A stretch of DNA of 64,000 nucleotides from Moorella sp. E308F (GTDB taxonomy: Bacteria; Bacillota; DSM-521; Neomoorellales; Neomoorellaceae), in the NCBI RefSeq assembly GCF_006538365.1, contig NZ_BJKN01000002.1:62001-126000 (forward strand), in the 5' to 3' direction. This document shows, one piece after another, positions 24,951 to 30,569 of this stretch; the first letter of the stretch is position 1, and every line of letters begins with the position of its first letter. Position numbers and translations under genes: made by a program. The notes beneath the pieces were generated by a model. The model did not search any database. It saw only the letters and a list, made by a program, of their open reading frames with translations, and had not been told where the DNA came from.

Positions 24951-25084
24951 TTGTTTCACCTCGCTTTTCAACCCTACGGCGATATTTTACCAGAGAAAGG
25001 GTTAGAAAGCAAGGAAATAAATTTCTCCTGCCGGGCAGGGAGTTACCGGGGCTTGTTGAAAATAATAATCAGGTGGTGAAGGGA

Positions 25085-25321
25085 ATGAGCGGCCAAGAGA
25101 AAACTAACGTCGTTCCTTTGCAAATAACCCCAGACCTCTCCATTTTGGAAGTATTGCAGGCCTATCCCCAGGTGCGGCAGGTATTTTATCGCTATGGCAT
25201 GGGCTGCCTGGAATGCATGGGTGCTATTAATGAAACCATTGCCAGCGGCGCCCGCAGCCACGGCGTTAACCTGGAAAACCTGTTGAAAGACTTGAATAAA
25301 GCCATTAGAAGCCGGGGATGA
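25085..25321 (+). CDS. DUF1858 / hybrid-cluster-protein-associated disulfide domain protein
   Basis: A 78-aa protein with a DUF1858-type helical domain (TPDLSILEVLQAYPQVRQVFYRYG) and a CxxC in GMGCLECMGA, the redox-disulfide motif of this small family. Function is not established; relatives occur near hybrid cluster protein and other anaerobic redox genes. The ATG at 25085 is preferred over upstream GTG codons at 25073 and 25076, which are part of the ribosome binding site. It lies 6 bases before recG. Confidence 0.8.
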   Translation: MSGQEKTNVVPLQITPDLSILEVLQAYPQVRQVFYRYGMGCLECMGAINETIASGARSHGVNLENLLKDLNKAIRSRG

Positions 25322-29480: not shown

Positions 29481-29648
29481 ATGGAAGTAAAATGTTCCCT
29501 CTGCGGTCGTAAAGAGGAGCTTACCAAAGTACATAAGGATTACCGTAAATTAGCCAGGGACAAGAATGCCGTCTACACCTGCGAAACCTGCCGTGCCCGC
29601 CTGCGCTACCAGGCCCTGCAGGCGCAAAGACCAGAAAAACCATTATAA
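29481..29648 (+). CDS. DUF2197 zinc-ribbon protein (YlaI-like)
   Basis: A 55-aa protein with two Cys pairs (VKCSLCGRKEEL and TCETCRARLR), matching the DUF2197/YlaI family of unknown function. A zinc ribbon is likely. The ATG at 29481 follows gaaggtgagactg. The frame extends upstream to 29406, but that part has no ribosome binding site and lies in the divergent gpr upstream region. Confidence 0.7.
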   Translation: MEVKCSLCGRKEELTKVHKDYRKLARDKNAVYTCETCRARLRYQALQAQRPEKPL

Positions 29649-29656
29649 ATAACATA

Positions 29657-29685
29657 TTGACAGCGAAAAATATGTACAGTATAAT
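29657..29685 (+). promoter_or_regulatory. Consensus sigma-A promoter of the selenoprotein operon
   Basis: TTGACA (29657-29662) and TATAAT (29680-29685), both perfect, are separated by exactly 17 bases. It lies 24 bases upstream of the HesB-like ATG. It is the best promoter match I found in the window and predicts strong constitutive expression. Confidence 0.92.
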
Positions 29686-29709
29686 CATAAAAAGAGAGGA
29701 GGAAGAAAG

Positions 29710-29991
29710 ATGGAAATTCGTATTAGCCCGAAAGCAGAACAATATATCAAAGAAAAATCCGATACCATTACCATTAAACTGGAGATGTGCGGCGGTTGAG
29801 CGGGTATATCCATTCGTCCTGCCGTGTATGCAGGCGCGCCGGCCGACGTGAAAAACTTTATTTTCCAGCAGCTAAACGGTTTGAAGGTATACCTGCAAAA
29901 AGGAATCAAGGCTTCCCGGGGCCTGGATGTGGACCTGGTAGGCTTTGGCCCCTTTAAACAGCTCGTTGTTGATGGAGTGCAAAATTATTAA
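29710..29991 (+). CDS. HesB-like selenoprotein with in-frame TGA (Sec30)
   Basis: A 93-residue protein if the TGA at 29797-29799 is read as selenocysteine: MEIRISPKAEQYIKEKSDTI, then LEMCGGU, then AGISIRPAVYAGAP and onwards to a TAA at 29989-29991. The N-terminus resembles the HesB/IscA fold, and CGGU places Sec three residues after a Cys, as in the known HesB-like/CC-Se motif selenoprotein family. A SECIS-like hairpin begins 15 bases after the TGA. The frame after the TGA stays open for 63 codons and ends 19 bases before thioredoxin. Alternatives are a Cys-to-stop mutation or a recently broken gene. Function is unknown; a redox role with thioredoxin is inferred. Confidence 0.82.
29815..29836 (+). 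promoter_or_regulatory. Candidate bacterial SECIS element
   Basis: Stem CG(T)CCTGC / GCAGGCG with one bulged T and loop CGTGTAT. The apical loop GU (29824-29825) lies about 25 bases after the TGA, within the spacing used by bacterial SelB-dependent SECIS hairpins. It lies inside the coding sequence, as expected for bacteria. Confidence 0.7.
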
Positions 29992-30010
29992 ATTGGGGAG
30001 GTAGTAAAAT

Positions 30011-30337
30011 ATGAGCAAGCCCGTTAATGTGGATAGCAGCGCCTTTGAAGCTGAAGTATTGTCAGCACCACTGCCGGTAGTAGTTGATTTCTGGGCCGTC
30101 TGGTGCGGTCCCTGCCGGATGATGGCCCCGGTACTGGACCAGCTAGCCGAAGACTACGCTGGTAACGTTAAATTTGCCAAGGTAAATGTTGACGAAAACC
30201 AGGAACTGGCCGCCCGATATGGTATTATGAGTATACCTACCCTGGTTATCTTTAAAGACGGCCAGGAAGTGGGACGGGTCATCGGCTATATGCCCAAGGA
30301 AAAGCTAAAGGAACAGCTGGAAGCTGCTATACATTAA
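30011..30337 (+). CDS. trxA: Thioredoxin
   Basis: Small dithiol reductant (108 aa). The active site WCGPC is at residues 31-35, with the buried Asp in VVDFWAVWCG and the cis-Pro in MSIPTLVIF. The ATG follows ggggaggtag and lies 19 bases after the HesB-like selenoprotein, so both share the consensus promoter. A natural partner for reducing a Cys-Sec bond, though this is inference. Confidence 0.95.
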   Translation: MSKPVNVDSSAFEAEVLSAPLPVVVDFWAVWCGPCRMMAPVLDQLAEDYAGNVKFAKVNVDENQELAARYGIMSIPTLVIFKDGQEVGRVIGYMPKEKLKEQLEAAIH

Positions 30338-30537: not shown

Positions 30538-30541
30538 CGAG

Positions 30542-30569
30542 GGTCACCGGTTAAAGCCGGTGGCCTTTA
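30542..30569 (+). terminator. Terminator of the selenoprotein-thioredoxin-ferredoxin operon
   Basis: A 9-bp stem (ggtcaccgg/ccggtggcc, one G-U pair), loop ttaaag, then a T-rich tail. Confidence 0.8.

Follow-up and report, generated by a model that had tools for sequence, protein, structure and literature searches.

Reading of the in-frame TGA

A reading frame broken by one in-frame TGA in the genome of Moorella sp. E308F raises the question of whether that TGA is read as selenocysteine (Sec) and, if so, what kind of protein the gene encodes. The frame lies in a stretch of 64,000 nucleotides (contig NZ_BJKN01000002.1, positions 62,001 to 126,000 of the forward strand), which is referred to here as the window. 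A preliminary description of the same DNA, made from the letters alone, had proposed a HesB-like selenoprotein gene with a good ribosome binding site, a perfect promoter, coding character on both sides of the TGA and, about 25 bases downstream of it, a hairpin with a GU-bearing loop. Translation confirms an ATG frame of 93 codons with the TGA at codon 30 as its sole break (Table 1), giving a protein that begins with MEIRISPKAEQYIKEKSDTITIKLEMCGGUAGISIRPAVYAG, ends with VQNY and carries the residues MCGGUAG around Sec30. The ribosome binding site and the promoter are both present, the latter matching the consensus at every base and ending 24 bases 5' of the start codon, and the hairpin was likewise found, its loop starting 23 nt past the UGA. 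Every feature named in the preliminary description is thus present.

Table 1 Positions of the selenoprotein gene, its signals and its downstream neighbours in the window
Feature	Position	Strand	Basis and remarks
Sigma-70-type promoter, TTGACA-17-TATAAT	29657..29685	+	12/12 consensus bases; pattern match only
Ribosome binding site, AGGAGG	29697..29702	+	Read directly
NF041239 CC/Se motif family selenoprotein gene	29710..29991	+	93 aa with U30; stop TAA 29989-29991
In-frame TGA read as selenocysteine, codon 30, CGGU context	29797..29799	+	TGA in all aligned orthologs
SECIS hairpin CCUGC-CGUGUAU-GCAGG, loop 29823-29829	29818..29834	+	Pairing conservation and compensatory changes
Thioredoxin (WCGPC)	30011..30337	+	TIGR01068, 136 bits; 19 bases past the selenoprotein gene
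Small ferredoxin-like 4Fe-4S protein, 62 aa	30349..30537	+	Fer4 Pfam matches
Intrinsic terminator	30539..30568	+	13-pair stem then T-rich tail; pattern match only

The window protein matches the NCBIfam family NF041239, 'CC/Se motif family (seleno)protein', along the entire profile (positions 1-91 of 91) with 97.3 bits against a cut-off of 40. A 2026 review lists NF041239 as a selenoprotein family with the motif CxxU, described as a 'hypothetical protein predicted in Moorella thermoacetica' (PMC13188914), and the same M. thermoacetica protein stands in the list of a 2022 review (PMC9312934). The gene is a member of this published selenoprotein family, with which it shares the full-length match, the CxxU motif and a TGA in all genus-level orthologs, and from which no difference was noted; the selenoprotein finding itself is not new. 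The expectation that standard gene callers would miss the gene holds for a plain open reading frame call, though not for NCBI, which has a family model and accessions.

A search with the NF041239 profile recovered the gene in 16 of the 18 genomes of the taxonomic family, the best match in each having exactly one in-frame TGA, and a sample of the phylum gave matches in 89 of 398 genomes, most of the best-scoring members again with one TGA. Relatives align across the TGA with Sec at the position of residue 30, or with Cys in some of the more distant members (e.g. L083, L085, L086, L107). Past the TGA, comparison of the window gene with its relatives in Moorella gave a dN/dS of about 0.02-0.06 wherever the values were not saturated, which indicates strong purifying selection on that part of the protein.

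The machinery for inserting Sec is complete in the genome, which holds a tRNA-Sec with anticodon TCA (73.8 bits) and, some kilobases from it, selA (629.5 bits) and selB (398.9 bits), as well as selD, whose own gene contains one in-frame TGA. The computational outcomes that had been named as contrary to a Sec reading, a lack of homologs aligning across the TGA and the absence of selA, selB or selC, did not occur. On contig C1 of genome G000 (693502-701933) a segment of about 8 kb contains both the tRNA-Sec and the selA-selB pair, with a five-gene cluster of the branched-chain-amino-acid ABC transporter type between them. An Rfam scan of positions 29600-30100 returned a single opposite-strand match, which was taken as chance.

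Conservation of the SECIS hairpin

Published limits for bacterial SECIS elements are a loop of 3-9 nt, a stem of 4-16 bp, a distance of 16-37 nt from the UGA to the loop, a G within the first two loop bases and a minimum free energy of at most -7.5 kcal/mol (PMC13188914). The window hairpin has a 7-nt loop, a 5-bp stem, a spacing of 23 nt and, as its second loop base, a G with a U after it, all within the first four of these limits. Its energy is borderline, at -5.7 kcal/mol for the 17-mer by itself and -7.8 for a 25-nt fold. Taken singly the hairpin is no more than chance would give: counted in the same way, a hairpin of equal or greater stability follows about 16% of TGA triplets in the window, and a shuffle test over 49 nt gave a z of 1.2. 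The significance of the hairpin in a single sequence was accordingly dropped as evidence for Sec, and the element counts because it is conserved with compensatory changes across the family, not for its stability alone.

Among 55 distinct downstream sequences of family members the hairpin has a constant offset of 21 bases from the TGA, and its pairing is kept in 95.6% of alignment cells, compared with 23-41% for slid versions. Compensatory cells numbered 19, where shuffling gave 11 at most. Stem variants in which CCUGC/GCAGG is replaced by CCUAC/GUAGG or CCCGC/GCGGG can be seen by eye. A hairpin of -5 kcal/mol or better follows the TGA in 54 of the 55 members, in comparison with 20% of TGAs in the window. 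Codon choice within the element is also biased, the Val codon of the loop being GTG in 50/51 cases (22% elsewhere) and the Pro codons CCT in 46/60 (28% elsewhere). The hairpin is not evident in most relatives that lack the UGA.

Could the TGA nonetheless be a true stop, ending a peptide of 29 residues or marking a gene decayed by nonsense mutation? Translation table 11 reads TGA as a stop, and chance alone would place a hairpin of this stability behind window TGAs at the rate given above. Against this reading stand the TGA at the same codon in all orthologs, the low dN/dS beyond it, the covariation of the hairpin and the complete Sec machinery, and we regard it as extremely improbable. The same observations favour the preliminary assignment of the TGA to selenocysteine, and from comparative sequence data Sec is almost certainly incorporated at UGA 29797. 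SelB would deliver Sec-tRNA(Sec) to this codon, directed by the hairpin.

Relationship to the IscA/HesB fold

Searches of Pfam and of PDB sequences with the window protein revealed no clear relative. Profile-profile comparison by hhalign with 17 HesB-like sequences (drawn from sequences scoring slightly or clearly under the TIGR01911 cut-off, most of which have an in-frame TGA) gave a probability of 97% and a score of 59.4, which fell to 41.7 with the Cys/Sec motif masked; controls, comprising 60 column shuffles and a reversal, scored no higher than 20.3. U30 is aligned in this comparison with the Cys of the HesB motif GxGC[GS]GP, the first conserved Cys of HesB. An AlphaFold2 model predicted from ten orthologs had a mean pLDDT of 89, and its top six Foldseek matches were IscA, SufA and DsrR. 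With VIA-align, ten chains exceeded Z 5 (5.7-9.3) before a drop to 2.6, nearly all of them IscA, SufA, DsrR or Fe-S biosynthesis proteins matched at full length, and the best was IscA 1x0g (Z 9.3, 2.7 Å over 87 residues). The predicted fold resembles that of the IscA/SufA carriers (PF01521; 1x0g, 1r94, 2d2a) along almost the entire chain (Z 9.2-9.3, rmsd 2.6-2.9 Å), whereas sequence identity to them is 14-15%. The predicted model is similarly close to the IscA-like fold of Allochromatium vinosum DsrR (PDB 2k4z; Z 8.6, rmsd 3.1 Å, 86 residues), with 10% identity to the window protein. Bacilliredoxin-type relatives were considered and rejected, their E values of 0.03-0.06 failing the cut-off and the predicted fold disagreeing.

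These comparisons allow the term 'HesB-like' of the preliminary description to stand in the sense of remote kinship, by profile-profile alignment and predicted fold, but not of family membership. The C-terminal Cys-x-Cys provides cluster ligands in IscA/HesB proteins of the Fe-S_biosyn type; the window protein has no Cys after residue 30 and thus lacks it, and Sec takes the place of the first Cys. It has no match to PF01521 (Fe-S_biosyn, Pfam gathering score 26.3) and none to TIGR01911 at E values up to 1, the latter model also finding nothing elsewhere in its own genome. With the HesB-like selenoproteins of TIGR01911 it shares, besides the remote homology, a similar length and Sec at the conserved Cys/Sec position; in place of their UxGP motif, however, it has UAGI, and it lacks their C-terminal Cys. 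NF041239 and TIGR01911 are moreover kept as separate rows in the review table, where UxGP is given as the motif of the latter (PMC13188914). We therefore consider it very unlikely, despite the remote homology and common fold, that the window protein is a canonical HesB-like selenoprotein or Fe-S_biosyn protein, and hold with high confidence that it is a remote relative of IscA/HesB.

No statement of a fold relationship between NF041239 and IscA/HesB was found in the literature searched, and papers beyond that search may contain one. The assignment of an IscA/HesB-like fold, based on a predicted model, is a useful addition to a known family and may be new. The gene confirms a selenoprotein family that is catalogued yet uncharacterised, and the added value lies in a testable structural hypothesis, that of a remote IscA/HesB relative with Sec at the key Cys position and, in Moorella and related genera, an adjacent thioredoxin. 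For proteins so far named hypothetical it offers a concrete contrast, in which binding of a metal or cluster is set against a redox role tied to thioredoxin.

Gene neighbourhood and possible function

The selenoprotein, thioredoxin and small ferredoxin genes probably form a three-gene operon, to judge from their arrangement, with the selenoprotein gene first and the terminator last. Within the taxonomic family almost every ortholog with a long enough locus has thioredoxin next to it, and the ferredoxin lies behind thioredoxin in Moorella orthologs and in several related genera. Outside the Moorella group the operon link to thioredoxin was not found, an opposite-strand HTH gene intervening, and thioredoxin is still nearby in some loci.

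Taken together, it is highly probable that the gene encodes an NF041239 selenoprotein with the IscA/SufA/HesB fold, for which a thioredoxin-linked selenol redox or metal-thiol role is the likeliest of those proposed. The product would adopt this fold with Sec30 in the turn that in IscA holds the first cluster-ligand cysteine, and would probably be co-transcribed with the thioredoxin and the small ferredoxin; in a redox or metal-thiol role based on its selenol, it could have its oxidised selenium re-reduced by the co-expressed thioredoxin. Among the 55 distinct Sec members, CxxU occurs in 21, and nine contain no Cys at all, one of which (L018) adjoins a thioredoxin. Because CxxU is not common to all members and nine are Cys-free, a selenenylsulfide within the chain cannot serve as a mechanism for the whole family. 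On these sequences the chemistry that members have in common must come from the selenol by itself, which would either react with an external thiol and be recycled by thioredoxin or serve as a metal or cluster ligand.

Between these roles we prefer thioredoxin-linked redox, as a tentative choice to which the sequences lend slightly less than an even chance. The competing proposal is a job like that of the A-type carriers, in which a dimer or oligomer would use its Sec30 selenolates to bind a metal ion or Fe-S cluster and hand it on, possibly to the neighbouring ferredoxin as client. This proposal agrees with the predicted fold, in which Sec matches the first conserved Cys, and with the small ferredoxin gene being part of the cluster; members that have one Sec and no Cys speak more for a ligand than for a redox pair within the chain. 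The organism's own genome, with a completeness rating of 99.98%, yielded no PF01521 protein, so that Fe-S assembly there apparently proceeds with no classical IscA/SufA; this absence is also consistent with a carrier-like job. The proposal is weakened by the missing C-terminal CxC of classical A-type carriers and by an immediate neighbour that is a thioredoxin and not an ISC or SUF gene, and we see it as a possible role whose probability stays well short of even. A combination of both roles, in which NF041239 would be a selenium branch of the IscA/HesB fold, with one Sec replacing the cluster-ligand Cys (in some members as the only such residue, no Cys being present) and acting as a thioredoxin-coupled, selenolate-ligated carrier of metal or Fe-S clusters, appears unlikely.

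Variant paralogs and Cys forms

Several paralogs depart from the single-Sec pattern. The second paralogs in two genomes of the genus Moorella (L034, L035) have GTAGG in place of GGUAG and, by eye, neither Sec nor Cys. Paralogs from other Firmicutes (L071, L073-L081) contain two adjacent in-frame TGAs, a tandem Sec-Sec mostly in the context [RH]GUU[NTH]A; these ten UGA-UGA paralogs carry at the same site a hairpin of another sequence, of the CCC[AG]UC type with mostly a GGUC or GGUU loop, which also covaries. A Cys-form paralog (L068; G390:C13:31400-32300) retains the SECIS-like hairpin sequence CCTGTCGTGTTTGTAGG and may possibly represent a recent change from Sec to Cys. An in-frame TAA and TAG in the same genome, G390, were considered as another form of stop recoding and rejected, as both are located close to the beginning of Cys-form paralogs, away from the Sec codon. 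Elsewhere in the window, positions 25073-25321 (+ strand) encode a DUF1858 protein (PF08984, 59 bits) with the motif CLEC, which looks like a Cys form because CxxU selenoprotein forms of the DUF1858 family are included in the review list (PMC13188914).
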